Shown piece after piece: positions 6,517 through 26,503 of a DNA stretch of 28,719 nt. The DNA lies in IMG/VR virus record IMGVR_UViG_3300035181_001340, positions 1 through 28,719 of that record; one strand, 5' to 3'. Under the pieces are notes generated by a model. The model searched no databases and was not told the DNA's origin. It worked only from the letters and a program-made list of their open reading frames with translations. Source of the DNA: a virus. Numbering within the stretch: position 1 is the first letter of the stretch; each line of letters begins with the position of its first letter. Made by a program: the position numbers and the translations under genes.

Positions 6517-9437
6517 CAGTGCCCTCGCTCCTGGATGTCGTCCCATGAACTCGCGAAGCCCGGGTGCAACTTGAGACCTGAGATCTCCCGCGCAGTGTGC
6601 CAGTCCGCTCCGCCATGCTCATCATCGTCCCCGGGCGGGTCGAACTGATTGTCCACGTCAGCGATGACCGTGTAGTACTTCCAGCCGCCGCAGTCGCTGA
6701 TGTGGGTGTCCCGGACACGGAAGTTCGGCAGCGCGTGCATCTCCTCCAGGCCCTCTCGGATCGCACCGTGCACCGGGGTCTCACCGGGGGCGAGCGCGCC
6801 ACCAGGGATCGAGTGGGTGTTCGGATGGTCGACCTTCGGCCCACGCTTCTGGAGAAGGTAGCGCGTCTCGCCGTCATGCCCACGGTGGCGCAGCAGGAGG
6901 CCAGCAGCGCCTCCTGCGCCCCAGTGCTCGTGACCCTCGGTGCACTTCACCATCCGGTCGTTCGAGCCGCCAGCGGCCGTCCTGGAGCCTCGGCACTGGT
7001 GCTGCGCGATCAGCGAGTCGATGATGCCCTGGCCGAACTGCTCATGAGGCACAGTCCTGTAGTCGTATCCACCGCACGTCGGGCAGTGGTAGGTCACCTG
7101 GTCGTTCGGCTTGTGCTGGATGACGTCGATCGGCGTCGGGCTGATCACCCGCTGGTCGAGCGAGGCGTGGTGGGTGCGCTGCCAGCGACGGATGCGCGGG
7201 TCGCTCATGTTCTGGGCGTACTCGTCCCCATGCTCGCCGACCCAGTGGTTCAACTTCTTCTGGAGGGTCGGCCGGTCGATCTTCTGCGCCCCGTAGCCGT
7301 CGGGGTTCGACACGTTGAAGACGTCATGGTCCTCGTCGTCGCCGGTCGCCTCGTGCCCGATGCCGATGTAGACGCCGCCCCGGTCCTTGGCATGCCAGCC
7401 CGACGGGTGGGTCACCTTGGCGTACGGCTCGTCGTCCTCGTCGAACTTGATGTGCTCCGGCTTGTGCCCCTTGTCGAGCAGATCGCTCATCGTCTGGGTC
7501 CGGCGCTCGGAGGCCCGAGACTCGTCGGTGCCGCCCGGGTCGAAGATGTCCATCATCCCCTTCCACAAGGACTTGCCGAGTTCCTCGCCCTTGTTTGCGG
7601 GCAGGTCGAGACCATGCCTGATCTCCTCGTCGGACAACTCGGCGGTCTTGCTGGCCGAGTGGAAGTGGCTCTCCCCCACGATGATTCCGGGGTAGTCGCC
7701 GGGCGAGTGCTTGTGGTCGTGGGCGTGCAGCCTCTTCAACTCGCCATGGCGTAGCGGCCGGTCGTCGCCGTGGGCGATGTCGAGCGCCGGGTGGTCCTCG
7801 TCGTAGGAGTTGCGCCAGAAGTCAGCGGGGTATATGTCGTGCGCCTCGCACAGGTGCGACTTGAGGTCGGTGGGGTCGGCGAGGTTCACCTCGCGCTTCT
7901 GGCCGTGCTCGTGCATCTGCGCCCGCATCTCGCCCGCGTCGCGCATCTGCTGGTAGAAGTTCCGGTCGTCGTCGGACAGCGGGATCTCGAAGGACTCAGC
8001 CATGGTCCGAAGGGACGAGGCGAAGTGCGAGGCCATCGACGAGAGAGAGTGCATCGTCTCGTCCTCGGGGCCAAAGGTCCGGTGCTCGGCATCGGTCCAC
8101 TTCTCGCCCTGCGGGTAGGGGCCAGCGTTCTCCTGGTAGCCGAGGCTCTTCGGGTTGCCCTCGCAGGGAGAGGCGTGCAGAGCGCCACGGGAGAGCCACT
8201 CACCCGGGTGCTTCGACGAGCCGCCCTGGTAGTAGACGGTCGTAGTGTTCGGGCAGTGCTCGCAGTGGATGTTGATGACGCCCTTGCCAGCGACACCCAT
8301 CGGCTTGTGGCCCATGAGTCGCGCCTGGTGCATCGTCTCCAGGGTGTGGTCTATCCCGTTCTGCTGGCGCTCAGGCATCTCGTAGTACGACGCCGGTCGG
8401 TGGGGTGCGGGATCGAAGTCGAACAGCCCAGCCATCACCGACAGGCTCGACCACTTCGTCGGGCCGATCGTCTTGTGCCGGAGCAGCCACGCTTCGTTGC
8501 TGCCCTTGAAGGCGTCCTCGACGTTCCGCTCGGCGCTCTGGTAGTCCGGGTGGCCCGGGTCCAGGTGCGGCGGGTCCATGTGCTCGCCCTTGGAGTGCGG
8601 TGCCTCGTGGTCCTGGCACCACTCGTTGTCGCACGGCTCGTCATCCTCGGTCGCGGCCGACCAGCCGCACTGCATGCACTGGCCGTGCCGGTTCCACGAT
8701 CCGTCGTGAGGACAGGTGGCCTGGTCGCGCATGGCCGTCTTGCTCGCGGTAATCGCCAGGCCGGATGTGTCGACCCCGGTGAAGAACGCAGTCGGATCGG
8801 CAGGCTCCTCGACGAGCAGGCTGTTCTCGAAGAAGCGCAGCCCGTAGCAGATCTCGCGGACGAGGATGCCCTCCTTCCTTCCCGTCTTCGGGTCGGCCCG
8901 ATAGATCCGCTGGCCCTTCATTCGCGGGATGTGCTTGCAGTACTCGGCCGGGTTGGTGGCCTTGTTGTCGCAGACCGAGCAACGCGAGTAGTCGACGTCG
9001 CAGCCCATCGAGGTGCGGTCGATGTCGCCCTTGATGATCGCCTTGGCCAGTCGCGGGAAGCGGACTGCATCGACCTCCATGAGGCCCTCGACCCAGGTGT
9101 CGGGGGCACCGCTGGGAAGGGTGTCGCGGTGGAGCGCCGCGTCGATGATGACCCCACGCATGCGGCGGTGGTCGTCGTTGTGGTGGTTGACGAAGACCGG
9201 CTTGCCGATGAAGGTCTTGTAGCCCTTCTCGATCTCGGGGGCCGGGAACTCGTCGAAGTTGTCATTGCAGCGAGACGAGATCATCCGCGACCTCACGTAG
9301 AGGTATCCAGCGCGCGGGGTGTAGTTGAAGTGGTGCCGGTGCGCGACCTTGAGGGCTCGGCGGGCAGAGCGATTCGCGTCCTGGGGTACCAGGACCGAGT
9401 CCAAGATCTTTACATCTGCCACAGCGAACTTGAGCAC
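6516..9437 (-). CDS. candidate capsid maturation protease fused to zinc modules and a Nudix domain, 973 aa
   Basis: GTG 9437 follows AGGAGG by 6 nt. Residues 1-225 resemble a phage prohead protease: F-I-G-K-P-V-F-V-N-H-H (76-86) offers the catalytic His, and R-T-S-M-G-C-D (141-147) the Ser. A zinc knuckle (C153/C156, C167) is inserted. ASKTA (231-235) closes this part. Cys-rich modules follow (242-280; 392-395), with I-G-P-T-K-W-S-S-L at 324-332. ASKTA recurs at 595-599, an HPSG domain spans 677-747, and GSRTA at 817-821 immediately precedes a Nudix hydrolase domain. The Nudix box is G880-x5-E886-x7-R894-E895 and E898-E899, with Gly at the usual hydrophobic position after RE. The protease call rests on motif and context; the Nudix call is firmer. 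Confidence 0.65.
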   Translation of the reverse strand: MLKFAVADVKILDSVLVPQDANRSARRALKVAHRHHFNYTPRAGYLYVRSRMISSRCNDNFDEFPAPEIEKGYKTFIGKPVFVNHHNDDHRRMRGVIIDAALHRDTLPSGAPDTWVEGLMEVDAVRFPRLAKAIIKGDIDRTSMGCDVDYSRCSVCDNKATNPAEYCKHIPRMKGQRIYRADPKTGRKEGILVREICYGLRFFENSLLVEEPADPTAFFTGVDTSGLAITASKTAMRDQATCPHDGSWNRHGQCMQCGWSAATEDDEPCDNEWCQDHEAPHSKGEHMDPPHLDPGHPDYQSAERNVEDAFKGSNEAWLLRHKTIGPTKWSSLSVMAGLFDFDPAPHRPASYYEMPERQQNGIDHTLETMHQARLMGHKPMGVAGKGVINIHCEHCPNTTTVYYQGGSSKHPGEWLSRGALHASPCEGNPKSLGYQENAGPYPQGEKWTDAEHRTFGPEDETMHSLSSMASHFASSLRTMAESFEIPLSDDDRNFYQQMRDAGEMRAQMHEHGQKREVNLADPTDLKSHLCEAHDIYPADFWRNSYDEDHPALDIAHGDDRPLRHGELKRLHAHDHKHSPGDYPGIIVGESHFHSASKTAELSDEEIRHGLDLPANKGEELGKSLWKGMMDIFDPGGTDESRASERRTQTMSDLLDKGHKPEHIKFDEDDEPYAKVTHPSGWHAKDRGGVYIGIGHEATGDDEDHDVFNVSNPDGYGAQKIDRPTLQKKLNHWVGEHGDEYAQNMSDPRIRRWQRTHHASLDQRVISPTPIDVIQHKPNDQVTYHCPTCGGYDYRTVPHEQFGQGIIDSLIAQHQCRGSRTAAGGSNDRMVKCTEGHEHWGAGGAAGLLLRHRGHDGETRYLLQKRGPKVDHPNTHSIPGGALAPGETPVHGAIREGLEEMHALPNFRVRDTHISDCGGWKYYTVIADVDNQFDPPGDDDEHGGADWHTAREISGLKLHPGFASSWDDIQERGH
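8445..8469 (-). repeat. 25-nt direct repeat, copy in the protease gene
   Basis: Identical over 25 nt to 15551-15575 in the SWIM gene; both encode I-G-P-T-K-W-S-S. The identity extends through synonymous positions, pointing to fairly recent copying or gene conversion between the two genes. Confidence 0.85.
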
Positions 9438-13036: not shown

Positions 13037-16000
13037 TCAGCCCATCCAGTCCTCGTCATCGTCGTCGTCGCCACGGATGGCGTCGAGCGCCGCGTAGTGC
13101 GTGTCTGCGATGTCGAGGACGTCGGTGTTGCCAGCGCGGCCGGGCTCGTCGATCAGGCGGCGCTGCTCCTCCGGAGAGAAGGCCCGCATCGCAGTCTTCC
13201 CCTCCAGGTGGGCTCGCGCTGCTGCGGCGATGTCCGAGTCGCTCGGGCCAGGGCCTCCGCGACCCGAGTCCTTCATGATGACCTGTGCCCCGGCAGTGCG
13301 CTGGAACTCGGCGACGATCGACTCGACCGAGCCGGTCGACATGATCGACTCGCTCTCGGGGCTCAGTACGTCGTCATAGACGGCATGCCCCTGACTGGAC
13401 TGGTCTCCCAGCAGGCCATCGCTGATCGCCGATCCGTCGGTCGACGGGAGGGCGGGCTCAGGCTCGTCGTGGAGATCTGCCTGGACGCCGTACTCGTTCT
13501 GGTCTCCCGAGTCCCAGGTGGCCGTGCCGTCATCAAGGGACGACTCGTGCTGGCCACCCATGGGTGAGAGGTCGTCATCGGAGTTGCATCCAGGGCAGTT
13601 GCCCTTGCTATCTGGCGTGACGCCCATCCCGCAGAAGTGGCACCAATGCGTCGGAGAGAGTTCGTTCTCCGGCGTGTGCATCGTCGGTGCAGCCTCGCCG
13701 GAATCAACGCCCTGGAGCATCACTGCGTCCGCCGGGGAGGACACGTCGCACTTGGAGTTGCCCGAGTGGTGGTGGACCCACGGGACGTTGGGATCCATTG
13801 TCGTGCGCCTGATCGACTTGCCGCAGTTCGCGCAGACGTCGGAGTCGCCCTCGTACGCCTGCTCGCTGTAGTGCGACGCGACGCGGTCACCCATCGTCAT
13901 CGGGCTGATCGAGTGCCAGCCGATGGGGTCGGGACCGGCCGCGAATCCGGCGCTGGCCGGGTTCTCCATCGGGTCCTTCTGCTTGGTCGCGCCGGGCAGC
14001 GTCGGCCATGTCTGCTGAGGCGGCGCAGGCTCGCCCCAGGCATCGTTGACCGCAGCCATCTTGGCGAAGCGCACCAGGGCCGTCGATCGGATCGAGGAGG
14101 CCTCAAGGAGGATGCCGATCTCGTCAGCGTCGTCTCCGGACGTGGCCATCTGCGCGACGGTCGTGATGACCGGCGCAGGCTCGATGACCTTCGACCAGAC
14201 GGTGCGCATGTTGCCCGGCGGCACGGTGCGGCGCGTCAGGTTCTTGTCGTCGTCCTTGTCGAACTGGATGACGACCGGGGTGCGCTTCTTCTGGCCGGGG
14301 AGCAGGCCATCGCCCTGGCTGACCTCGCGGCCGAACATGCCCCGAGAGGAGGCCTCGAACTGGACAGCCAGCGCGTGGCTGCACATGCGCCCCTCGAAGC
14401 GCTTGTAGCGAGGGCTGCGTCCCCAGGCGTACGCGGCCCACTTGCAGCCGCACTGCCAGATCGCGATCTTGCGCGAGCCGGGTGCGTACTGGAGACCGGT
14501 CTCGTAGATGTGGTGGTCGCCCTTGACCTCAGCCTGGATGCCCTGGCTCGAAGCGACGACGATGCGGACACCGCCCTCGGTGCGGATCCGCTTGGCCTTG
14601 TTGCGGACGTCGCTCCACGAGCCCGTGAACTCGAAGCGGAACTCGGGGTCGGCTGCCGCCTCGCGGATCAGCGAGTAGGGGTCGAGCGAGGAGTACTTGC
14701 TCGGGCCGATGCGGTTCTCGGCCAACTCGTCATAGACGTGGTGCGGCGTCCCGGCGAAGGCGTCCTCGATCTTCTCGGCGGCGTCGTAGAAGCCACGCTG
14801 CGGCTCGTGCAGGTGGCCGTCCTTGCCCGACTCGTTCTTGCGGTTGACCCAGACGCCCTCGTCGTAGAGGTGCTTGCGGAGCGGCTCACCGCAGTGGACG
14901 CATGTGCTGTCGTACGGGCCCGGGGTCCCCTGAGACGAGTACTTCGTCGGACCCTCGTGCTGCTGGTCGAGCAGCCACTCGCTCCCTGAGGTGGCGTCGT
15001 TGACCTGCTTGCGGAGGTTCTTCTCCTCGGGGCTCGCGACGTCGTTGGCGAGCCAGCCCGGCATCTCGCCAGGCTTCTGCTCGTACATCGACTGCGGGTG
15101 CTCGGTGCAGTCGTAGTTGTTGCAGTCCCATGCGCCGTGCCCGTCGAACGCCTGGTGCAGAGGGCGGCCCCAGGCGTCGTGCGTTCCCTCGGCATGACGC
15201 GCCTGGGCCCACTCGTAGTGCTCGTCGCCGGAGTGACCGCCCCCTCCGCAGTTACACGGACCCGAGGCTGCCGTCTTCGAGGCCTGGCCACGGATCTCGT
15301 TGATGCGATCCTTGGCCATCATGAGGTCGTCGGTGGGGCCGGAGTACTCACCCGGGTGCTGCTCGCGGATGTGCCGCGAGCGAGCGTCCTCGGTCATGAA
15401 CCCGTCCTTGCAGTGCGGGCATCCGAGACCGGGCTCGTAGGTGAAGGACTCGCCCTTCCAGGTGTCGTGCCCGTGCGAGTACTCCTTGCCGTCGCTGTCG
15501 TCGGTCGGGCCTACCTGGAGATCGCGGTGGTCCCCATGGTCAGCAGTCTTGCTCGACCACTTCGTCGGGCCGATCTTGTTGTCGCCGAGCAGGCCCTTGA
15601 GGTGCTCGCTGTCCCCCAGCGCGTCATCGACGGTCTCGCCGACGTCGCGCTGCTGGGCGTGCTCGTAGTCGGGGCTGTTGCGCATCATCCAGCCGTGCGG
15701 GTCCTTGTCGTACTCCTGGCGGTCATTGGACGTGTCCAGGTGGCCGTCGACCCAGTGGTTGGGGTGGTAGCCGGGGTGCTCGTCCTCGTGGTCCCACAGC
15801 GCGGCACGGGCCTGGGCCTCGTCCGGGAAGTGTCCGAGGTACGCGCGCCCGTGGTGGGCGTGGTACGCGGTCTCGTTGCCCCAGCGGTTGGTGCCGACCT
15901 CGACCCTCGCGTCGTCGGGGTCCGGCCCCTCTGGATCGTGGTCGAGGTCCTCGTCCTCGTCGCCCTCGACCTCAGCCGTGCGGGAGAAAGGGGGCGGCTC

Positions 16001-16900
16001 TGCCAGCGAGTAGGTACGACGACGATCCATCGCGTCAGCGTGCCGGTCGTAGGGATCGCCGGAGTCCATCGCGGAGTCGGGGTCGTCGTAGTAGTCGTCC
16101 TGGTCGTCGCGCGGCTCGTGGTCGGTGAACTGGTGGATGTCCTTCTCACCGCAGTGCGGGCACGCGCCGTGCGCGTCGTAGTTGAAGTCGCCTCCGCAGG
16201 AGTTGCACTGCGTGTCGGCCGGAGCCTCGCCGGGGTCGCGCTGGTTGGCGACCTCGGAGGAGTACTGGCTCATCTCGGCATCGTTGACGGCGTGGCGGGG
16301 TGCGTAGCGGCGGGCAGCATCCTGATACTGCTTCTTCGAGCAGTCCTCGCACTGGGACGGGAAGGCCACCGGTCCGTTCTCGGTCTGCCGGTCTCCGCCC
16401 AGGGTGCGCATCTCGTCGACCGGCTTGGTCTTGCCGCAGTCCTCGCACTCAGCCGTGTCTGGCTCGGAGAGCGAGGTCTCGGTCTGGCGGAGCGAGGCGT
16501 AGGACGTGATGGGGGCCTCGCGGAAGCCAGAGGCCGAGGACGCAGTCCGGCTGCCGAGCACGGTGTTGATCGCCGGGTCCGGTCGATCCTGGAGGATCGA
16601 GCCCAACTCGGGGTAGTCGTCGGCCGCCGTGTGCTCGACGCTCGCCGTCGTGGTGCCCGTGGGAGACAACTGGGAGGCCGTGTAGAGCCCGCCGCCCATG
16701 CCCTTGTCCAGAGTGACCTGGTAGGCCTCGTTGCCCGCGCTTGGGCCATCGTGGACCGCCGTGACGGTGCCGGGGAGACCATCGACGGTCATGACGGCGG
16801 AACCGGGCTTGAACTCCCAGTAGTCCGACGAGGTGACCCCCGCTGCCTTGCTGACTGCTGCCGTCTCGTGACGGGAGGCCTTGCGGCTACCCAGACCCAT
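13037..16900 (-). CDS. giant modular SWIM / zinc-finger protein, 1287 aa
   Basis: The start is ATG 16900, just after GGAAGGGAG and element F; a longer frame to 16993 would run into the portal gene. A small barrel lies near residues 30-80. C-x-x-C pairs occur at 152/155, 184/187, 232/235, 247/250, 494/497 (C2H2-like with H510 and H515), 667/670, 1023/1026, 1087/1090 and 1102/1105. Residues 778-850 form a SWIM zinc finger: C817-x-C819-x20-C840-x-H842 after a beta hairpin. Three modules end in I-G-P-[TS]-K-[WY]-S-S (443-450, 649-656, 731-738). SRTA occurs at 117-120 and 306-309, SSKTA at 449-453, ASKTA at 540-544. The C terminus is poly-Asp then E-D-W-M-G. SWIM domains bind DNA or protein; the role here is unknown. 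Confidence 0.8.
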   Translation of the reverse strand: MGLGSRKASRHETAAVSKAAGVTSSDYWEFKPGSAVMTVDGLPGTVTAVHDGPSAGNEAYQVTLDKGMGGGLYTASQLSPTGTTTASVEHTAADDYPELGSILQDRPDPAINTVLGSRTASSASGFREAPITSYASLRQTETSLSEPDTAECEDCGKTKPVDEMRTLGGDRQTENGPVAFPSQCEDCSKKQYQDAARRYAPRHAVNDAEMSQYSSEVANQRDPGEAPADTQCNSCGGDFNYDAHGACPHCGEKDIHQFTDHEPRDDQDDYYDDPDSAMDSGDPYDRHADAMDRRRTYSLAEPPPFSRTAEVEGDEDEDLDHDPEGPDPDDARVEVGTNRWGNETAYHAHHGRAYLGHFPDEAQARAALWDHEDEHPGYHPNHWVDGHLDTSNDRQEYDKDPHGWMMRNSPDYEHAQQRDVGETVDDALGDSEHLKGLLGDNKIGPTKWSSKTADHGDHRDLQVGPTDDSDGKEYSHGHDTWKGESFTYEPGLGCPHCKDGFMTEDARSRHIREQHPGEYSGPTDDLMMAKDRINEIRGQASKTAASGPCNCGGGGHSGDEHYEWAQARHAEGTHDAWGRPLHQAFDGHGAWDCNNYDCTEHPQSMYEQKPGEMPGWLANDVASPEEKNLRKQVNDATSGSEWLLDQQHEGPTKYSSQGTPGPYDSTCVHCGEPLRKHLYDEGVWVNRKNESGKDGHLHEPQRGFYDAAEKIEDAFAGTPHHVYDELAENRIGPSKYSSLDPYSLIREAAADPEFRFEFTGSWSDVRNKAKRIRTEGGVRIVVASSQGIQAEVKGDHHIYETGLQYAPGSRKIAIWQCGCKWAAYAWGRSPRYKRFEGRMCSHALAVQFEASSRGMFGREVSQGDGLLPGQKKRTPVVIQFDKDDDKNLTRRTVPPGNMRTVWSKVIEPAPVITTVAQMATSGDDADEIGILLEASSIRSTALVRFAKMAAVNDAWGEPAPPQQTWPTLPGATKQKDPMENPASAGFAAGPDPIGWHSISPMTMGDRVASHYSEQAYEGDSDVCANCGKSIRRTTMDPNVPWVHHHSGNSKCDVSSPADAVMLQGVDSGEAAPTMHTPENELSPTHWCHFCGMGVTPDSKGNCPGCNSDDDLSPMGGQHESSLDDGTATWDSGDQNEYGVQADLHDEPEPALPSTDGSAISDGLLGDQSSQGHAVYDDVLSPESESIMSTGSVESIVAEFQRTAGAQVIMKDSGRGGPGPSDSDIAAAARAHLEGKTAMRAFSPEEQRRLIDEPGRAGNTDVLDIADTHYAALDAIRGDDDDDEDWMG
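15551..15575 (-). repeat. 25-nt direct repeat, copy in the SWIM gene
   Basis: This stretch encodes I-G-P-T-K-W-S-S and is identical over 25 nt to 8445-8469 in the protease gene, about 7 kb away. Three further copies (around 14684-14710, 14930-14953 and 20032-20055) keep the amino acids but differ in several bases. Confidence 0.85.
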
Positions 16901-16916
16901 GGCGGTCTCCCTTCCT

Positions 16917-16952
16917 CTACCCCTTCGTCGTAGTCCTGCCGGTGGGGACAGG
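16917..16952 (-). promoter_or_regulatory. intergenic element copy F
   Basis: On the minus strand CCTGTC (16952-16947), 20 nt, then GAAGGGGTAG (16926-16917), followed by AGGAAGGGAG and the ATG at 16900. In this copy the 20-nt spacer lacks the usual CTTCnCCGA and instead forms half of the inverted repeat at 16929-16958. Confidence 0.7.
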
Positions 16953-16958
16953 ACTACG
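16929..16958 (-). terminator. perfect 10-bp inverted repeat overlapping the portal stop codon
   Basis: CGTAGTCCTG (16929-16938) and CAGGACTACG (16949-16958) are exact reverse complements around a 10-nt loop. One arm contains the portal TAG. No U-run follows; instead the hairpin merges into element copy F. It could be an attenuating or processing hairpin rather than a strong terminator. Confidence 0.5.
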
Positions 16959-19245
16959 CGGCGCTGCCGTCCTGGGGTGCCTCGTAGAACCACTCGTCCA
17001 TCGGCTTCTCCGGCTCGACGGATGCGTAGCGGCGCATGCCGATGTGAGAGGGGGCTCGGTAGGTCTTGGGAACCACTCGGGCCGGGTCGATCTCACCAGC
17101 GACCAGCCTGGCCCGCAGGGAGGGCATCTCGGTGATGGGCTCCTCAACGGACTCGCCCTCGTCGTTGGTGATGGTCCGCTTGCCGATGACCTTGATCTCC
17201 AGATCCTCCGACTTAACGCCCTGGAGGTAGAAAGCCTCGGTGTCGGCCAGCATGCGGCGGGCCACCTTGAACATCGGCTCGCGCTCACGCTTACGGAGTG
17301 CTGCGGCCATCGGCATGCCGTCCCTCTGCTCGTTGCTCTCCTCGGGCACGTTGGACTGCTCGCCGAAGGCAGGGATCCCGGCCGACTGGCTCGGGTTCAC
17401 CGGCTGGGCACCCATGCCGGGGATCGGCACGCCAGGCTCTGGCTGCATGAGGTCCTGCGCAGTCGGAGCGAGGTTGGCCGGATCGCTGGTGGGGTCGAGC
17501 CCCAGCATCGGCGCACGGGCGCTCATGGCCCCGTCCTGGCTGATCGGGGGCTGAGCCTGGGCCGCCTGTGCCTGGAAGTCGGCGATGAGGTCGGCCGGGA
17601 TCGGGAGGCCCTTGCTCCGGAGCGCCATGTAGATCTGCTTGCGCGTCTCCTGCTCGGCCACCGCGATGTCGACCTGCTCCTGCATCGCGGTCTCGATCTC
17701 GTCGGAGAGGTTGATCTCCACGTTGCGCATCCGGGTCTTGATCGAGATGGGGACGCCAGACTCGCGAAGAGCCTCCATGAACTGACGCTCGCCCTCCTCG
17801 TCACGGAGGTTCATCGTCTTGAAGCGCATCTCGGGGACGAGCAACTTGGGCTGCTCGACGATGCGCTGCTCGCCGGTCTCCTCGTCGACTTCGAGGATCT
17901 CCTCCATCTTGACGTAGCGCTTGCCCTCGCGGACCTCGTAGTCGTAGTGCTCCTGGGCCTCGGCGACGACGAGCATCCGCTGGCGCACGTGGCTCTTGAC
18001 GAGGTCCTGGAAGGTGGTGAGCAACTGACTCACGAGGTCGCGGTTGAGGGCGTCGGCTGCGTATGTCTCACCGCTGCTCGCGCCGTTGAGCATCGTCTGA
18101 CTCAGCCCGAACGCCTGGAGGATCCGAGACTCGATGCGATCAAAGTCAGGTCCCAGGTCGGGCATGGCCTCCCGTCCGAAGACGCTCTCCATCGTGACAC
18201 CGAAGTTGTGAACGATGACGCGGAAGTCAGCAGCCAGAGCGCCATCGAGCGCCTCCTCGAAGTCCGCCAGGTCATCGCCGGTCGGGATCCACGGGACGGA
18301 GGTTCCGAGATCGGTGGCGCTCGCGCCGAGACGGGCGAGGATCAGCGGGGTGTAGAGGCGGTCTGCGATGGCATCCATCGCGGAGTTGAGCATCTCCTCC
18401 TGCACGACCGAGCGCATGGCTCGCATCAGCAGCGGGACGCCTCGCTTGTTGAACGTGTCGGCCTTGAACTTGTACTGGTGCAGCAGCACGTTGCTGACCG
18501 GCATGAGGTCGTTGTCGTTGCCGAAGTTGATCAACTCCGGGTAGTTCTCCAGCAACTTCTGGTACTCGAAGAGCGGTGTGCGAGTAGAGATCAGGTCGCG
18601 GATCGTCTTGGGGAGACGGATCAGGAAGCGGGGGTCCTTGAGGAATGGGCTGCGCTCGACCTCGATGTCGTCGGGGTTGAGCAACTCCTCGCTGTCCCAG
18701 ATACCGAGCACCTCGTTGAACGAGGCGAACGGCCATGCCTCGCCGACGGTCCAGTACTCGCGCCCGAAGTCGAGCAGGAACTCGTCGTAGTTGAGCCCCT
18801 CCTCGGTGAAGAACAGGTCGGTGTAGAACTGCGTGATCTGCTCGTCCTTGCACGACAACTCGGCACCCTGGAGCGGGTACTTGGTGAAGATGTCGATGGC
18901 CGGGCCGATGATCGGGTGGGTCTGGTAGAGCAGGCGGCAGAACTGCCTGATCCGCTTGAGTTCCTCGTTGTCTGCCGTGTCGTACGGCAGGTTGTTCTGC
19001 TTCCAGTAGAAGAACGGGTCGCGGGGTCGCCCGGTGGCGAACGCGAGGTCGGACCCACCTCGGCCGCCACCGGGAGTCATAGCGGTCTTGTTCATCCCGG
19101 CGATCTTGGAGTTGACCCGACGGTTGTGGCGCATCTCTGACTGCTCAGGGGTCGTCTCGGTGCTCGCGGTGCGCGTGCTTCCGAAACGACGGCCCATGCG
19201 GCTCAGGACCGCCTGGTCGTACCCGTCTGGCTTGGTGTCAGCCAC
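16954..19245 (-). CDS. portal protein
   Basis: This is the dodecameric-ring type protein at the head vertex through which DNA enters. The start is GTG 19245, 2 nt after the upstream stop. At 763 residues it is long for a portal. The body from about 70 to 560 has typical portal features: Y-Q-T-H-P-I-I-G-P-A-I-D-I-F near the start, the aromatic W-T-V-G-E-A-W-P-F-A-S-F, a long helical segment (V-V-Q-E-E-M-L-N-S-A-M-D-A-I), the F-G-L-S-Q-T-M-L-N-G region, and a helix before a mixed C-terminal tail. Residues 23-28 (S-T-R-T-A-S) and 52-55 (N-K-T-A) carry the recurrent motif, so the N-terminal ~55 residues may be removed. The TAG stop lies inside a hairpin. Confidence 0.85.
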   Translation of the reverse strand: MADTKPDGYDQAVLSRMGRRFGSTRTASTETTPEQSEMRHNRRVNSKIAGMNKTAMTPGGGRGGSDLAFATGRPRDPFFYWKQNNLPYDTADNEELKRIRQFCRLLYQTHPIIGPAIDIFTKYPLQGAELSCKDEQITQFYTDLFFTEEGLNYDEFLLDFGREYWTVGEAWPFASFNEVLGIWDSEELLNPDDIEVERSPFLKDPRFLIRLPKTIRDLISTRTPLFEYQKLLENYPELINFGNDNDLMPVSNVLLHQYKFKADTFNKRGVPLLMRAMRSVVQEEMLNSAMDAIADRLYTPLILARLGASATDLGTSVPWIPTGDDLADFEEALDGALAADFRVIVHNFGVTMESVFGREAMPDLGPDFDRIESRILQAFGLSQTMLNGASSGETYAADALNRDLVSQLLTTFQDLVKSHVRQRMLVVAEAQEHYDYEVREGKRYVKMEEILEVDEETGEQRIVEQPKLLVPEMRFKTMNLRDEEGERQFMEALRESGVPISIKTRMRNVEINLSDEIETAMQEQVDIAVAEQETRKQIYMALRSKGLPIPADLIADFQAQAAQAQPPISQDGAMSARAPMLGLDPTSDPANLAPTAQDLMQPEPGVPIPGMGAQPVNPSQSAGIPAFGEQSNVPEESNEQRDGMPMAAALRKREREPMFKVARRMLADTEAFYLQGVKSEDLEIKVIGKRTITNDEGESVEEPITEMPSLRARLVAGEIDPARVVPKTYRAPSHIGMRRYASVEPEKPMDEWFYEAPQDGSAA

Positions 19246-19247
19246 GG

Positions 19248-20480
19248 TCAGACCCCCGCGAAGGTGTCGAGGTCGTAGCAGTCCTCACCGGGGTCGTGCG
19301 AGCCAGAGGCACCGCAGCAGGGGCAGCCGAAGGTGCGCTGTCCCGACGGGTCCATCGTGGCGTTGCCCGAGCCGTGGCAGGTCTGGCACGGGTACCGCTG
19401 GTTGGTGATGCCGGAGACGTCCTTGCCACAGTCGTCGCAGTTCGCTTCGCCCGATCGAAGGCCGCTCCCGCAGCCGGGGCACTTGGCCGCGTCGTTGAGC
19501 ATCGAGGTCTTGATCACGAGAGCAGTGGCCGCCGGGTCGGGCGAGGTGACGATCGCGATGTGCCGGATGAAGTCGTCCTCGTCGAGCACTGCGCCCCTGG
19601 AGGTCCGGTAGGTCTTCTTGGCGAACGGGTTGCCCTTGGACTTCTCGTGGCCGGAGGAGTCGCCCGAGGCGCTTTCGTCGTCGGCCTTGGCATCGGCCTC
19701 GCCGGTCGGAGGGACCTCGCCGCCCTCACCGAGAGCAGAGGGGTCCATCGGAGCGCCTGGCTCGGACGGGTCGGTATCCATGCCCTCCATCGGCGAGCCG
19801 GGAGGAGGTCCGCCGGGAGCGCCCATCTGGCCGGGCATGCCGGGCACCTGTACGGGCTGGCCGTCGATGCTCTGCGGGAAGTTGGGGTAGACCGGCTGCA
19901 CCTGCACGGTGAAGGCGGTGTGGCAGAACTGGCACTCGATGGTGCGGTCGGACCGCGCGAGCACCTGGCCGGACCCGCAGAACGGGCAGTGGAAGACCGT
20001 CATGCCGTCGCCGGAGTCGTGCGCGACCTTGCGGGTCGAGTACTTCGTGGGCCCGCTCGGGTTGCTCATCAGGAACTCCTGCTCCTCGGGTGTGCCGATG
20101 TCCAACTTGCTCGCGAGGTCGGCCCGGTCCTCTGCGGTCTCGCCGATGATGCTCTGCGAGTGGTCGCCCTCGATGGGGCGACGGTGCTTGATCCCGCCTG
20201 GGGTCATCAGCAGCGACTCGCTGTGCCCGACGATGGGCTCGCTGTGCCCGCTCTCCCAGAGCAGCGAGTCGCCCGTCTGCAAGGGGCGAGGAGGACGGCG
20301 GCCGGGCGTGTGGATGATCGGCTCCGGGTGGCGAACCTGGCTCCACGCTGCGCTCTTGCTGACCATGCCGCCGCGCGAGCCGTCCTTGCAGGCGTCGCAG
20401 AGCATCTTGTCGCCGACCCTGGTTCGGGGCTCGTAGGGCCCCATGGTCGCCTTGCAGTCGTCGCACTGACGCCGTGCCAT
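19248..20480 (-). CDS. multi-zinc-ribbon protein with one GPTKYS module, 410 aa
   Basis: ATG 20480 lies 6 nt after GAGGAG. The protein has at least three metal-binding clusters: C6/C9 with C28/C31 (LIM/ribbon-like), C165/C168 with C183/C186, and a C-terminal group C334/C337, C348/C351, C365/C368 and C386/C388/C389. S-G-P-T-K-Y-S-T-R-K-V-A at 142-153 matches the recurrent module found in the SWIM protein and the protease. Residues 55-115 contain imperfect repeats of E-P-I-x-x-H and S-x-S-x-x-x-T-P-G. The middle (195-290) is Pro/Gly/acidic and disordered. It ends 2 nt before the portal start. Probably a head-internal or portal-associated protein; no enzyme motif is seen. Confidence 0.8.
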   Translation of the reverse strand: MARRQCDDCKATMGPYEPRTRVGDKMLCDACKDGSRGGMVSKSAAWSQVRHPEPIIHTPGRRPPRPLQTGDSLLWESGHSEPIVGHSESLLMTPGGIKHRRPIEGDHSQSIIGETAEDRADLASKLDIGTPEEQEFLMSNPSGPTKYSTRKVAHDSGDGMTVFHCPFCGSGQVLARSDRTIECQFCHTAFTVQVQPVYPNFPQSIDGQPVQVPGMPGQMGAPGGPPPGSPMEGMDTDPSEPGAPMDPSALGEGGEVPPTGEADAKADDESASGDSSGHEKSKGNPFAKKTYRTSRGAVLDEDDFIRHIAIVTSPDPAATALVIKTSMLNDAAKCPGCGSGLRSGEANCDDCGKDVSGITNQRYPCQTCHGSGNATMDPSGQRTFGCPCCGASGSHDPGEDCYDLDTFAGV

Positions 20481-20483
20481 GCC

Positions 20484-20954
20484 TCACTCCTCGCCGAAGC
20501 CGAAGGCGTCCCTCATCAGCACGACCGACGCGAGTCGGACCAGGTGGTCTGCTTCGGTGTCGTCGAGACGTGACGTGACGGCGAGGAACGATGGGTCGTG
20601 CCGGATGCGAGCGGTGATCGAGTCCAGCGCGTCCTGAGCGTACTGGCCGAAGGAGGCCAGGTGTCCACTCGCGGCCATCTGGTTGAGGAGACCCTCGGGT
20701 CCCTCGTTCTCGTAGATGTCCTTCGCAGCGTGCACGGCGAAGCCACCGACGTCGAGCGAGTCGTCGAGGGAGGACTCGACGGTCATCCCGGCAGCGATCG
20801 GCGTGATGTCGTCTGTCGACACCAGCGAGTAGTCGCCGCTGGCCCACTTCACATGGGCACCGGTCGACGAGCAGGCCAAGATGCGCCCCTCGTCTCCGGG
20901 CTGGATCTCACCCATCGGCGTACCGATGTAGGAGACCCTCTGACCGTCATGCAC
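20484..20954 (-). CDS. hypothetical protein with N-terminal SH3-like barrel, 156 aa
   Basis: I place the start at GTG 20954 because GAGGAG then lies 8 nt upstream. The in-frame GTG at 20963 is also possible, but the purine block would almost touch it. Residues 1-45 (G-Q-R-V-S-Y-I-G, I-Q-P-G-D-E-G-R-I-L, A-H-V-K-W-A-S-G) have the pattern of a small beta-barrel of the kind seen in many short actinophage proteins. The C-terminal two thirds are helical (L-L-N-Q-M-A-A-S-G, A-D-H-L-V-R-L-A-S-V-V-L-M-R-D). It sits between two large zinc proteins in the same run. No function was recognised. Confidence 0.7.
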   Translation of the reverse strand: MHDGQRVSYIGTPMGEIQPGDEGRILACSSTGAHVKWASGDYSLVSTDDITPIAAGMTVESSLDDSLDVGGFAVHAAKDIYENEGPEGLLNQMAASGHLASFGQYAQDALDSITARIRHDPSFLAVTSRLDDTEADHLVRLASVVLMRDAFGFGEE

Positions 20955-20966
20955 GTGGCTCACTCC

Positions 20967-23582
20967 TCAGAGAAGCAGAAGGGGAAGGAGTTCGGCTGCG
21001 GCAGCAGCCCCGCCACCGGCCGCAGCAGCCTCACCAGCACCCGCAGCAGCGGCTCCGGCACCTGCGGCGGCCTCACCAGCGCCAGCAGCCTCACCGGCTG
21101 CTCCAGCGCCGCCAGGGCCCTTCGGCATCCCAGGGCCACCGGGAATCTTCGTCTGGATCATCTTGGTCGCGTTGTCAGCAACCTCGCTCGCCTTCTCCTT
21201 CACGAAGTTGGTCATTGGACCGTCGTGCGGCTCGATGCCACTCCCGAACTGGGTCGGATCGATGAGAGCGACGACCCGCGATGCCAGCACCCGGGCTTCG
21301 GGCAGGGACAGGCTGGGGTTCGCCCGCAGGATCGCAGCGACCGCCTTGGTGGGCGAGTCGGTGGACGGGTTGCTCGGCTGGTCCATCCCCATCGACGCAG
21401 GGTCGAAGGTCCCGGCGGCTGATCCGTCGGGTATGCCTCCACCCCCACCAGAGGGCATCTGGCGGGGCTTGGTGGTGCTCTGGTTGGCGTCAGTGCCGCC
21501 CTCATACGGGGCGCTGGCTCCAGGCATCTTCTCGTCGGTGGGCGGGACCCCGCCGAACGGAGCGGCCGTCTTCGCGGACGTGAAGGCGTCGGGGTACTTG
21601 CGCCTGAGTTCCTCGTCCTGGCGGGCGTAGTAGTCCTTCGACCCGCCGGAGAGCGTCTTGCCCTCGGAGTCGAAGGTCTCCGGACCGAAGATGGTGCTGG
21701 TCGAGTAGGTGCCGTCCTCGTTCGGGGTGACGTGGGTCGGCCCGTCCCAGAAGTTGTTCGGGCTGTGCACCAGCGTGTTGGGCTTGGTGGGGTGCCACAC
21801 GACCGGGCCAGCGCCCCGCTCGAACCGCTTGTTCAGCGCGTCCGCGTGGTGCTGCGGGGCGACCTCGTACTCCTGGCCCTCGGGGTCGTCGATGGTGTGC
21901 GAGCGCCACTTCTCAGCAGCGGTGCCCATCAGCGTGGCCCGGGTGCGCGCGGAGGCGCGGCTGATCTGCTGCTGGTAGGTCTGCGGGTTGGACAACTTCT
22001 CGTCGGTCATGCCCTCGTCGTACGTCGCGACGTCGGGCTTGCCCATGGTGCCGTTGGGGGTGTCCTGGATCTCGCCGTCGTTGGTCTTGTATTGCCAGGG
22101 CTCCCACTTGTGGGTGTCGTCGTCCTGGTCCTCGGCCGCGACCTTGCGTGCCACCGCGTTGGTCGCGAGCAGCATCGAGGTGACCTCGTTCTCGGGCATC
22201 CCCATCGCGTCGGCGACCTGCTTGCGCGGGCCCTTCTTGATGCCGGTCCCCTTGCACTTCGGGCACTTGCGCGTCGCGTCCCACGGGTGCGAGCCGGAGC
22301 CCTTGCAGGTGCCGCAGTAGATGCTGCCAGCGCCGCCTGGGTCCATGTCGCCAGCGGTCTTGGCCGCACGCGGGTTCCCCTGCTGGGGCTGCGGGTCGTA
22401 GTGCGTGCCGTGCGGGTAAGCGTCGTAGTAGCGGCCGTTGCCGGACCCAGCCAACTCGGCCCAGACCCGGGTGGGGCTCTCGTGCTTGAGGGTCCAGCCG
22501 TTCTGGCCGCCCTCGGCCAGCGACTTCGCCATCTCGGCGTGGGGGATCGACTCGCTCGATCCGCCGAACTCGTTGTAGCGGACCCAGTGCGTCGGAGTGC
22601 TGATGCGCGTCGTGGATGCAGCAGTCTTGCTCGCCGTGGTGCCGGTGATCTTCTGGCCTGAGCCGGTGCCGAGCCCGGTACCGTGCGACTGGAAGTGCTT
22701 CTCGCACATGGCAGCCCAGGGCCCCTGCTTGGTCTTGCCGTCGTACTGCGCAGGCACACCGTCGACACCGTCGATGTACTTGCAGATGTCGCACGAGGGG
22801 CGAGCGCCGGTCCAGGTGGTCTCGGTGCCAGCAGTCTTACTCGCCGTGGTCCCGTTGTGGACGTGGGTCATGTGGCTCGCGTGAGCCGAGTTCACCCCGC
22901 CCGGCCCCCAGCCGTAGAGCGTGTCACCGCAGTCGGGGCACGAGGTGTGCCACAGACCGTTGCCCTTGTGGCGCGAGACCGGCCAGACGCCTGGCTCCTC
23001 GTGGGTCGGGGTGACTCGGTACTCCTGCTCGGCCGAGCGCTGGCGGTACTGGTCCCAGGACTCGTCGTCGTTCTTGCTGCTGGCGGTTACCGGATTCGGA
23101 AACCCGGCTCCCCGCCGGGCCGAGGACTTGCCGGTCAGCCACGGAGGCTTGCCCTTGGAGTCGTCGTCGTCCGAGTCGTCATCGTCATCCGAGTCATCGT
23201 CGTCGGAGTCGTCATCGTCCGAGTCATCGTCATCATCGTCATCATCGTCATCATCGTCATCATCGTCATCATCGTCATCATCGTCATCATCGCTGTCCGA
23301 GTCGTCCTGGTCCTGAGCCGCATCGCCCCCGGCCTTGGCCAGCACACGCCAGTCGGATCGGAGGACCTCGTTGACGGCCTCGACGTCGACCTGGTGCGCT
23401 GCTGCCTCGCGGGCGATCGGGTCCTTCACGAGGAACAGGCGCGTCCCGAGGTCGGCCTCGGACTCGGCGTTGGCGATGAACGGCCACACGCGGGCAGCGG
23501 CCATCCGCGCCATCGTGTGGTCGCGCTGCGCAGCCTCAGCGGCGTAGTCGCGGGTGGCCTCGTTCCAGAGGTCGTCAGACAT
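20967..23582 (-). CDS. large modular protein with poly-Asp tract and zinc fingers, 871 aa
   Basis: The start is ATG 23582 behind TAGGAG. Residues 1-85 are helical (W-P-F-I-A-N-A-E, L-F-L-V-K-D-P-I-A-R-E-A). Residues 91-141 are almost pure Asp with scattered Ser, encoded by a microsatellite. Cys/His modules follow: C-P-D-C near 216 with H-x4-H, C-D-I-C and C-E-K-H near 265-290, and a DnaJ-like C-G-T-C-K-G-S-G with C-P-K-C-K-G-T-G at 423-446. ASKTA sites at 247-251 and 317-321, AAKTA at 406-410 and SAKTAA at 669-674 fall between modules. The C terminus is Gly/Ala-rich and ends L-L-P-L-L-L-L. No catalytic family was recognised. It is probably a virion-internal protein. Confidence 0.8.
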   Translation of the reverse strand: MSDDLWNEATRDYAAEAAQRDHTMARMAAARVWPFIANAESEADLGTRLFLVKDPIAREAAAHQVDVEAVNEVLRSDWRVLAKAGGDAAQDQDDSDSDDDDDDDDDDDDDDDDDDDDDDDSDDDDSDDDDSDDDDDSDDDDSKGKPPWLTGKSSARRGAGFPNPVTASSKNDDESWDQYRQRSAEQEYRVTPTHEEPGVWPVSRHKGNGLWHTSCPDCGDTLYGWGPGGVNSAHASHMTHVHNGTTASKTAGTETTWTGARPSCDICKYIDGVDGVPAQYDGKTKQGPWAAMCEKHFQSHGTGLGTGSGQKITGTTASKTAASTTRISTPTHWVRYNEFGGSSESIPHAEMAKSLAEGGQNGWTLKHESPTRVWAELAGSGNGRYYDAYPHGTHYDPQPQQGNPRAAKTAGDMDPGGAGSIYCGTCKGSGSHPWDATRKCPKCKGTGIKKGPRKQVADAMGMPENEVTSMLLATNAVARKVAAEDQDDDTHKWEPWQYKTNDGEIQDTPNGTMGKPDVATYDEGMTDEKLSNPQTYQQQISRASARTRATLMGTAAEKWRSHTIDDPEGQEYEVAPQHHADALNKRFERGAGPVVWHPTKPNTLVHSPNNFWDGPTHVTPNEDGTYSTSTIFGPETFDSEGKTLSGGSKDYYARQDEELRRKYPDAFTSAKTAAPFGGVPPTDEKMPGASAPYEGGTDANQSTTKPRQMPSGGGGGIPDGSAAGTFDPASMGMDQPSNPSTDSPTKAVAAILRANPSLSLPEARVLASRVVALIDPTQFGSGIEPHDGPMTNFVKEKASEVADNATKMIQTKIPGGPGMPKGPGGAGAAGEAAGAGEAAAGAGAAAAGAGEAAAAGGGAAAAAELLPLLLL
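22619..22640 (-). repeat. 22-nt repeat encoding T-A-S-K-T-A, copy 2
   Basis: Partner of 22829-22850 with a single mismatch (a synonymous Ser codon difference). The spacing of 210 nt (70 codons) corresponds to one zinc module. Confidence 0.7.
22829..22850 (-). repeat. 22-nt repeat encoding T-A-S-K-T-A, copy 1
   Basis: It matches 22619-22640 at 21 of 22 positions, within the same gene. Both encode the linker motif between Cys modules, suggesting duplication of a module together with its linker. Confidence 0.7.
23229..23291 (-). repeat. seven perfect 9-nt tandem repeats encoding poly-Asp
   Basis: Seven uninterrupted copies of GTCATCATC on the plus strand (coding strand GATGATGAC, Asp-Asp-Asp) lie within a longer, more degenerate Asp/Ser-coding tract at 23160-23312. 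The repeat preserves frame, so slippage would change length by three residues at a time. Confidence 0.95.
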
Positions 23583-23866: not shown

Positions 23867-26503
23867 TCAGTCCTCCCTGGTGAGGTCGAGCAGGCCAGCC
23901 TGCACCCGGCGGCGGAAGGCCACCGTCTGCTGGTTGGCGAAGGGGTTCGGGGGCCCGCTGTGGGTGACCTCCGGCGGCACGATCTGGGCCGGGGCGATAG
24001 CACCAGGCACGACCGGACGGCCGTACGGCGGAGCGCCCTGGTAGGGGGCGGGGCCACCGGCCTCAGCCGGGCTCTCGTAGCCCGCCAGCGGCCCAGGACG
24101 ACCCGGACCGTTGATCGGGGTGTCCCCGGTCGGGCTGGGGCTGGTGCCGGGGCTGGTAGTGGCCAGGTCGGTCTCGGTGGTGGCCACCTTCGCCGACTTG
24201 GTCGGGAAGGACTTGTTCGCCGCGTCGTAGGTACGCGGGCACGAGCAGTCGCCATGGCTGCACCCGGCGGTGTGATCGCCGATGTTGTGCGAGCAGTTCA
24301 TGCAGCGGCCGGACGGCTCGAAGATCAAGTCCGCCACCACGTACGAACCCTGCACGCGCATGCCGGTCCTGCTCGCGACGTGCTTGGTGAACTTGTCCTG
24401 CACCGCGATGCGGGCGGAGAACTCGGGGAGCCGGGCCGCCATCTTCGCGTGCTCGGCACGCCAACCGGCCTGGTTCTCGGGGTTGTCGGTGATGCCCGCG
24501 TAGAGGCCAGCCTCGAACTCCGGGGTGCCGGTGCGCACCAGTCGCCCACCGGTCTTCCAGCGACGGGCGAAGCCGTAGCCCTTGAAGAACTCGGGGTGCG
24601 ACATCGCGTCGTCGGGGGTGAACGACAGCGACGCCTTGCGCTGCACGTAGTTCTTGACGCCGCAGTTGGGGCAGGTGCGCTGGCTCTCCGAGGGACGAAC
24701 GCCGTCCACCGCGACCTGGGGTCCGCCGCCGAGGCTCTCGCCGCAGGACCGGCAGTTGTTGCTGGAGGCGTCGTCGAGAGCAGCCGCCTTCTCTACTGCC
24801 GCACGAGGATCCGGGTCGACCAACTGCTCCGAGGACATCTCGGTCTGGTCGATCAACGGGAACATCACGTCACCGGGGAGCGGAGTCGGACGCTGGCTGA
24901 TGCCGTCGGGAGCCGTCGTCTGCTGGATCTGGTCCAGGCCCGACGCGGCCTCCTTGGCGCTGAACCGGCCGAAGCCGCCGCCGTCCTCGTCACGGCCGAG
25001 CATGTAGGTGCTGACCAGGCCGCCGTTCTCGGCAGCCTGGTCCTTGACCCACTTGGTGATGTCGGCGTGGCTGCCCTCGCCGAAGTGGCGCACGAGGTCG
25101 TCGTGGTCGCTCGGGGAGATGTTGTGCTTGCGGTAGGCGGCCAACTGCGGACGGCTGACCTCGCCGTACGACTCGTGGAAGATCGCCGTGGTCTGGATGC
25201 TGCCGGTCTTCTCGGCGTTGCCGGTGCCGGTACCCCCGCCGCTGTTCTTGCCGCAGCCGGAGGCGGGGCACGCGCAGGAACCGCCAGAGCAGCCGGGCGT
25301 GCCGTTGGTGCCGGAGTGGTTGCCGTTGGTGCAGTTCGTGCACACGCGCTTGCTGGCAGCCTTCTTCGAGTCATCGAGCGAGTCGATGACCTTCACGGCC
25401 TCCTGCGGGTTGGGGAACCGCTGGCGGACCTCCTCGGCCGACAGGCCGGTGGCCTCGACGAGACGGTCCATGGCGGCCGAGCCGTCCTGGTCGGTCGAGC
25501 CCACGCCTCCAGGGAAGCGGGCGTCATCGACCTGGGAGGAGTCGCCGTCAGCCGCGATCTTGCGAGCCGCCCTGCCGTGCTCCATGCCTCCGCCGGAGAA
25601 GTAGGGCGTGTGCGGGCCAGTGCCCCCGGCGCATCCGGGCTTGTGGTGCTGCCCTTCGGCAGCGGAGCAGCCACCGCAGGTGGTGCCGTCGTTGAAGTTG
25701 TCGTACTGCTCGACGGCCGTCTTACCGACGGCCTTGCGAGGGTCAACAGCGGCTGCTGCCTCCCTGGCCTGCGCGATGCGGAACTGGTCCATGTTCATGA
25801 CGTGACCGATGGCCACGCTTGCCGTGAAGGGGGCCGGGCCCTCGTCCACGATCGGGGCCTCGGAGTGCAGCGTCTCCTGCTGGCCGCCACCGGCCTGGTT
25901 CATCTGGATGGCGGGAGCGAGGTTGCTGTCCTCGGTGCCGGACACGCCCTGGTTGATCGGGTGGATCTCGTCACCGAAGGTGTCGAAGACGTCTGGCGGG
26001 ATCGGGGTGGCCTGCTGGGTGACGCCGTCCGGCGCGACCGTCTGGTCGATCTGGGGGAGACCCGAAGCGCCCTCGCGACGACGGAGGAACGACAGGTAGT
26101 CGATCGCGGCAGAGGCGGCGAGAGGAGCAGCCTCGGCGTACTGGGACGCCTGGCGACGCACCATGCCGTGGGCCTGGATCGTGAACTCCTCGTCGTCGGC
26201 CTTGACCTCCGGCGAGACGCGGCTGTACCACTGCGCGGCCTCGGCGATGATCTTGGCGTGGTACTGGGAGCCCGAGGTGTCGACCTCGTCGAGCCACTCG
26301 GTGGATGCGGTGTGCAACTCGTGAGTCCGCACCGGCTGGAGAGTCTGACGCACCGTCTCCTCAGCCCAGTCGTTCTCCCGAGCAGCCGCCGCAGCGGTGA
26401 CCGCCTGGCGGTCGAGTGCGTCGAGTTCTCCGACCAGACGGGTCTGCTCGGCGAACGTCGCGGCCTTGCTCAGGTCGGCGACGATCTGCGCTCGCTTCTT
26501 CAC
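23867..26503 (-). CDS. large modular Cys-rich protein with internal duplication, 878 aa
   Basis: The start is GTG 26503, sharing GTGA with the upstream stop. An alpha-helical N-terminal region (1-145) is followed by a module with A-P-D-G and T-P-I-P-P-D-V (148-174) that recurs as A-P-D-G and T-P-L-P-G-D-V at 522-550. Each copy is followed at a distance by D-P-R-x-A-V-x-K-x-A and a C-x-x-C cluster (254-279 and 565-587). Further Cys groups lie at 388-417 (C-T-N-C, C-A-C-P), 587-614 (C-R-S-C, C-P-N-C) and 734-756 (C-M-N-C, C-S-C-P). K-T-A occurs at 261-263. The last 100 residues are Pro/Gly-rich and disordered-looking. No enzyme family was recognised. It is probably a head-associated zinc protein. 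Confidence 0.8.
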   Translation of the reverse strand: MKKRAQIVADLSKAATFAEQTRLVGELDALDRQAVTAAAAARENDWAEETVRQTLQPVRTHELHTASTEWLDEVDTSGSQYHAKIIAEAAQWYSRVSPEVKADDEEFTIQAHGMVRRQASQYAEAAPLAASAAIDYLSFLRRREGASGLPQIDQTVAPDGVTQQATPIPPDVFDTFGDEIHPINQGVSGTEDSNLAPAIQMNQAGGGQQETLHSEAPIVDEGPAPFTASVAIGHVMNMDQFRIAQAREAAAAVDPRKAVGKTAVEQYDNFNDGTTCGGCSAAEGQHHKPGCAGGTGPHTPYFSGGGMEHGRAARKIAADGDSSQVDDARFPGGVGSTDQDGSAAMDRLVEATGLSAEEVRQRFPNPQEAVKVIDSLDDSKKAASKRVCTNCTNGNHSGTNGTPGCSGGSCACPASGCGKNSGGGTGTGNAEKTGSIQTTAIFHESYGEVSRPQLAAYRKHNISPSDHDDLVRHFGEGSHADITKWVKDQAAENGGLVSTYMLGRDEDGGGFGRFSAKEAASGLDQIQQTTAPDGISQRPTPLPGDVMFPLIDQTEMSSEQLVDPDPRAAVEKAAALDDASSNNCRSCGESLGGGPQVAVDGVRPSESQRTCPNCGVKNYVQRKASLSFTPDDAMSHPEFFKGYGFARRWKTGGRLVRTGTPEFEAGLYAGITDNPENQAGWRAEHAKMAARLPEFSARIAVQDKFTKHVASRTGMRVQGSYVVADLIFEPSGRCMNCSHNIGDHTAGCSHGDCSCPRTYDAANKSFPTKSAKVATTETDLATTSPGTSPSPTGDTPINGPGRPGPLAGYESPAEAGGPAPYQGAPPYGRPVVPGAIAPAQIVPPEVTHSGPPNPFANQQTVAFRRRVQAGLLDLTRED

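Follow-up and report, generated by a model that had tools for sequence, protein, structure and literature searches.

An aspartate-rich tract encoded in part by a 9-nt repeat array in a putative prohead core or carrier protein of a large actinophage

Background

What might an almost unbroken run of aspartate do in a protein encoded among the head genes of a phage, and how did a perfect 9-nt repeat come to encode part of it? Both questions are raised by one gene of the virus record IMGVR_UViG_3300035181_001340, a complete IMG/VR record of 28,719 bases (hereafter the window, to which all coordinates refer). The window is a 28.7-kb piece of the genome of a large actinophage, distant kin of the Bxz1-type phages, Finch and Skog. 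The tract itself is a curiosity, yet it draws attention to a still unnamed family of proteins from the head module of the much-collected Bxz1-type phages.

In this work, comparative sequence analysis was combined with structure prediction to characterize the tract, the protein that carries it and the relatives of both. No paper about this protein was found among the matches listed in a search of the open literature.

Results and discussion

The acidic tract and its repeat array

The tract occupies residues 93-142 of an 871-aa protein (20967..23582, minus strand), an open reading frame with homologues of its N-terminal domain in 43 distinct records, and is encoded at 23157..23306 (minus strand). 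Its translation comprises 43 Asp and 7 Ser, with a net charge of -43 over 50 residues. The initial annotation had described about 50 Asp residues with scattered Ser in a phage gene, and this reading holds; the span assigned to the tract, 23160-23312, was right in place and a few bases off at its ends. The longest run of Asp and Ser in the 871-aa protein is thus 50 residues versus at most 8 when its residues were shuffled 2,000 times, so the tract is not a product of chance.

At the DNA level, a repeat scan revealed exactly seven GATGATGAC units arranged back to back within a perfect period-9 array of 69 bp (23224..23292, minus strand; TRF: 7.7 copies, 100% match), with degenerate GAC, GAT and TCG codons on both sides, just as the seven perfect units with degenerate flanks had been reported. 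The next perfect tandem run of at least 20 bp in the window measures 24 bp and is the sole other one among the matches listed. That long perfect repeats are rare, as was also suggested earlier, agrees with a count of 33 stretches with at least four exact GATGATGAC units in the 2.9 million contigs of IMG/VR; their perfect runs span 36-74 bp, and the window's 69 bp is therefore close to the top of the range and not unique. The codon GAT accounts for 19 of the 43 Asp codons inside the tract versus 81 of 700 outside, the latter counted in 25 selected window genes (Fisher p = 3e-7). The array thus departs from the usual Asp codon choice of the phage, as would be expected if slippage had copied a single unit.

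Two other readings of the region were discarded. An open reading frame for poly-Ser on the opposite strand (22921-23316, plus strand) is the antisense of the tract, and nothing marks it as a gene. A match to the NCBIfam entry "ribonuclease E" covers residues 87-142, consists of acidic low complexity alone and lies far below the cutoff. Searches for tRNA and Rfam features found none.

Genomic context

The tract gene sits in the head module, upstream of the genes for the portal, the protease and the major head protein. The portal protein (phrog_2833; 16954..19245) and the major head protein (phrog_2522; 1495..2484), both on the minus strand like all genes named below, were assigned by PHROG matches. 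A 973-aa protein (6516..9437) has a protease-like N-terminal part (phrog_18299) and ends in a NUDIX domain (PF00293 match, residues 855-963). The remaining neighbours are a large 1318-aa head-module protein (13037..16993), characterized by motif search and comparison, a 410-aa protein (19248..20480) in which sequence comparison revealed the motif GPTKYSTRKVA, and two proteins of 159 aa (20484..20963) and 878 aa (23867..26503, upstream of the tract gene) whose synteny is conserved. Searches with the latter two matched no named phage. The gene order 878-871-159-410-portal-1318-protease was found again in IMG/VR contigs. At the corresponding position, ahead of the portal, Finch, Tonenili, Skog, Settecandela and Stormageddon each have one or two genes for large hypothetical proteins. 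Relatives of the portal are found in 214 named records, mostly of large actinophages; 196 are named for Mycobacterium and the rest for Gordonia, Rhodococcus and a few other hosts. Elsewhere in the window, the major head protein gene is followed by that of a 210-aa protein rich in Glu, Pro and Ala with a net charge of -41 (195-827), and an 810-aa protein (4114-6546) carries the domain DUF7178 (PF23802).

Layout of the 871-aa protein

The protein begins with a helical domain of residues 1-92 (23307..23582), hereafter the N-domain, which was defined by an HMM family and is modelled by AlphaFold with a mean pLDDT of 89. The whole-protein model has a mean pLDDT of 45.6 and is usable for this domain and for the low-confidence coil (pLDDT about 46-58) into which the adjoining tract is modelled, and for these alone. 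Of the roles suggested in the initial annotation, that of a spacer fits this prediction, in which a low-confidence coil would separate the ordered N-domain from the later modules. A small Cys-containing domain, phrog_23287 (residues 261-317; 22632..22802), also present in other actinophages, follows between two TTASKTA stretches. The C-terminal part (residues 743-871; 20970..21356) closes with a stretch rich in Ala and Gly and with AELLPLLLL, and has similar counterparts in the relatives L003, L004, L012 and L045.

Neither the PDB (sequences and folds) nor the named PHROGs gave a convincing match to the N-domain, and its top Foldseek matches are proteins of the phages Shifa (probability 1.00, E 0.09) and Finch (probability 0.98, E 0.23). 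Viral contigs yielded no relative of the entire 871-aa protein, and the match to named phages is confined to one 50-residue domain. DNA searches with the gene region gave only tract-like matches among those listed for phages (Erwinia, Dickeya and other phages) and none for plasmids.

The N-domain family

Three seeds served to build an HMM of roughly the first 90 residues, and 90 records (the window, five named phages and 84 IMG/VR loci) supplied the ORFs that it was run against. At E <= 1e-3, 49 of these records each gave one matching ORF; the removal of six duplicates left 43, among which there are still close relatives of one another. Short contigs make up part of the records that gave no match. 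The family takes in Tonenili gp102, Skog gp149, Finch gp12, Stormageddon gp8 and Settecandela gp44 by HMM, and I3 gp94 and E3 gp68 by tblastn with Finch gp12; all seven are annotated as hypothetical or conserved hypothetical proteins. The 871-aa protein of the window shows both features of the family, the N-terminal helical domain and a gene upstream of the portal. All 43 family proteins are net negative; a conserved strong acidity of the members that lack a tract was considered and dropped, their median being -6.5 per 100 aa and that of the portals -5.3.

Acidic tracts in relatives

Tracts in the relatives were called by scoring Asp/Glu segments, a procedure that drops the last Ser of the window's 50 residues. 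In 6 of the 43 family proteins an Asp/Ser tract directly follows the N-domain, starting at residues 90-94 (window, 49 aa; L019, 59; L004, 60; L012, 62; L045, 65; L003, 80), and two more of the 43 carry one further in, at residues 207-270 in Skog and 245-289 in Tonenili. Gp94 of Mycobacterium phage I3, which is not among the 43, has a tract at about residues 337-386. The tract is therefore not a defining feature of the family, and the lack of a tract of this size at either place in the other 35 homologues indicates that the N-domain family can dispense with it. Among the tract-less members, a short tail rich in Glu forms the C-terminus of L039, L040, L046, L055, L057 and L066, and a run of 17 residues in L058 is likewise Glu-rich.

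A repeat number fixed across distant relatives, which the initial annotation had named as evidence against its own reading, is not what the relatives reveal: in each of the other seven tracts the longest perfect run of tandem repeats spans between 9 and 35 bp (the latter in L003, with period 12), versus 69 bp in the window. Some relatives share an acidic tract, and among the tracts compared only that of the window has the repeat array. Since only the window's tract, among those compared, joins a long pure repeat to an unusual richness in GAT, it is best described as a recurring kind of acidic linker that was probably expanded recently in this lineage. No close relative that spans the tract came to light; L002, whose portal shares 90% identity along most of its length, begins at residue ~438.

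In a portal tree of 42 rows (L012 was left out, its portal lying outside its stretch), the window, L019 and the group of L003, L004 and L045 stand apart from one another. The sister of the window is the tract-less L018; both this pairing (80/79) and the backbone around it are weakly supported. To judge from these sequences, about three gains of the tract and one gain with several losses would fit about equally well.

A short motif in head-module proteins

Five copies of a short motif, (S/A)(K/R)1-3(T/V)A, are spread over the 871-aa protein and were located by motif search as possible processing sites: SKTA at 22830..22841 and 22620..22631, which belong to the two TTASKTA stretches flanking the phrog_23287 domain, AKTA at 22353..22364, ARKVA at 22137..22151 and AKTA at 21564..21575. 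The pattern used, [SA][KR]{1,3}[TV]A, was chosen after examples had been looked at, and pooled related proteins are not independent, so all counts are to be read with this in mind. The five copies compare with a shuffle mean of 0.22 and a maximum of 2, and the 70 copies in the 43 family proteins with a mean of 6.0 and a maximum of 14 (300 shuffles each). In the window, 10 head-module proteins contain 14 motifs versus 1.4 expected, and the other 15 genes contain 1 versus 0.6. In Finch, eight head genes contain 15 motifs in 4,577 aa (1.0 expected, maximum 4), and 46 control genes contain 8 in 14,336 aa (3.5 expected, maximum 12).

Several of the positions lie between recognizable parts of proteins. 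In the 973-aa protein, SKTA (~233) follows the protease-like part and SRTA (~819) precedes the NUDIX domain; the 1318-aa protein carries four strict motifs. The consensus of eight portal sequences contains AAMNKTA, and the N-terminus of the major head protein bears a loose resemblance to the motif. The strict motif is absent from 9 of the 43 family proteins, from the homologue gp68 of Rhodococcus phage E3 and from its neighbour gp70, and the protease proteins of many relatives have no motif in the part examined. A second motif, GP(S/T)K(W/Y)S, occurs in five copies across the proteins encoded at 13037-16993, 6516-9437 and 19248-20480 (minus strand), twice running directly into KTA or RKVA (GPTKWSSKTA, GPTKYSTRKVA); elsewhere in the ORFs searched only three copies were found, in L018 and L019.

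Exchange of modules

Residues 557-651 of the 871-aa protein match residues 175-269 of an ORF of L019 at 72.6%, and residues 420-461 match residues 645-686 of the same ORF at 64%, in reversed order. The N-domain protein of L019 has a match to residues 215-330 of the 1318-aa protein encoded in the window (38%, E 2e-10). The 557-651 module is absent from L002, and the DUF7178 of the window's 810-aa protein shares one ORF with the protease in L029. Few as they are, these sequence matches point to interchangeable modules. Comparison of L019 (2555-5176) with the window (20967-23582 and 13037-16993) shows Cys-rich modules of small size in another order or in another carrier protein.

A possible role for the tract

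Taken together, the tract, its location among head genes, its recurrence in relatives, the motif enrichment and the predicted low-confidence coil lead us to infer, with a probability of roughly one half and by analogy with the core of phage T4, that the protein belongs to the prohead core or is an internal carrier, possibly cut by the protease, and that the tract is its disordered acidic segment. The protein would then be present in the head or prohead, where its two ends may anchor it in the core, and a strongly negative, floppy linker would join the conserved N-terminal helical domain to the variable small modules and the C-terminal part. The charge of the segment could keep a crowded region of the core in solution and in an extended state, and could repel DNA. 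The maturation protease would cut the protein, perhaps at the (S/A)(K/R)1-3(T/V)A sites, and the pieces would exit or stay as internal proteins. Selection appears to have tolerated or favoured acidity more than exact sequence, and in the window lineage the 9-nt array may, through replication slippage, have taken the place of part of an older Asp/Ser segment.

The main rival to this proposal is neutral repeat growth in a tolerant linker, in which a slippage-prone microsatellite serves as any soluble in-frame filler would and the charge is non-specific. We regard it as rather unlikely. It agrees with the 35 of 43 homologues that do without a tract, among them L018, the sister of the window in the portal tree, with a 9-nt unit that never breaks the frame and with an array private to the window lineage among the records examined. 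It accounts less readily for long Asp/Ser tracts at the same spot in the window, L019 and the group of L003, L004 and L045, which the portal tree does not place together, for another at that spot in the phage L012 (not in the tree), for those elsewhere in the Skog and Tonenili homologues, and for an Asp/Ser-rich composition that is kept though sequence and codons differ. An error of assembly in the array or its repeat length is the least probable explanation: perfect repeats are prone to such errors and the window is one metagenomic contig, but the reading frame is open throughout the array, its 69 bp are exceeded by common sequencing read lengths, and tracts of similar length (49-80 aa) occur in relatives without pure repeats.

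Two further possibilities concern the charge itself. Poly-acidic segments can mimic the charge of DNA, and an ejected internal protein might use the tract as a DNA mimic or as an acidic decoy for host DNA-binding proteins. We consider this quite improbable, since the mimics that we know of are folded proteins with spaced charges, none of them homopolymeric, and the domain attached to the tract is also found in phages without it. In its favour are the protein's place in the head module, its cargo-like domains and the precedent of internal proteins, which the available text of PMC9026906 and PMC10052503 describes as ejected in T4 and as probably ejected in SPN3US too. Binding of Ca2+, Mg2+ or polyamines, which would buffer ions during DNA packaging or ejection, suits the density of carboxylates (43 Asp per 50 residues); it appears very unlikely given a sequence that varies freely among relatives, in which neither a metal-site motif nor conserved spacing was seen.

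The preferred reading, a disordered segment of a core or carrier protein, may be extended, if only tentatively and with some doubt, to the head module as a whole. Proheads of these phages might be built round modular polyproteins in which a shared anchor domain and C-terminus carry interchangeable, often Cys-rich cargo domains; the (S/A)(K/R)1-3(T/V)A sites between them would be cut by the maturation protease to load internal proteins, cargo would move between carriers, and poly-Asp would be a detachable charged arm. If the motif is indeed the protease site, virion mass spectrometry of Mycobacterium smegmatis phages would show the packing of small internal proteins, and the role of the acidic arm in the prohead core would come into view as well.

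Comparison with known systems

In phage T4, the genes for core and internal proteins lie near those for the portal, protease and capsid, and the core protein gp67 is acidic. According to the available text of PMC9026906 and PMC9958956, the core proteins gp22 and gp67 are fragmented by gp21 and mostly lost from the head, whereas the internal proteins and Alt stay in the head and many are ejected. The 871-aa protein resembles gp67, gp22, IPI-III and Alt in the position of its gene near the portal, protease and capsid genes; cutting and packaging are known for T4 and proposed here. It differs from the T4 core proteins in its multi-module layout and in an N-domain for which no sequence or fold match was found, and the T4 cleavage site is L/I-X-E, as opposed to the proposed (S/A)(K/R)1-3(T/V)A. 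As no homology was found, membership is not claimed and T4 serves as a working analogy. The head maturation substrates of SPN3US, as far as the available text of PMC10052503 describes them, have large propeptides and several cleavage motifs, with one short motif common to many head proteins. Here a short motif, a putative cleavage site, is enriched in the head proteins of the window and of Finch; that of SPN3US is AXE, and the likeness is one of description.

The closest counterparts are those of the actinophages. Tonenili gp102, I3 gp94 and Skog gp149 share with the window's protein both the N-domain and an Asp/Ser tract, which in these phages lies further in (about residues 207 to 386). Finch gp12, Stormageddon gp8, Settecandela gp44 and E3 gp68 share the N-domain and have no tract, and throughout these Bxz1-type and related homologues the modules and C-termini differ from those of the 871-aa protein.
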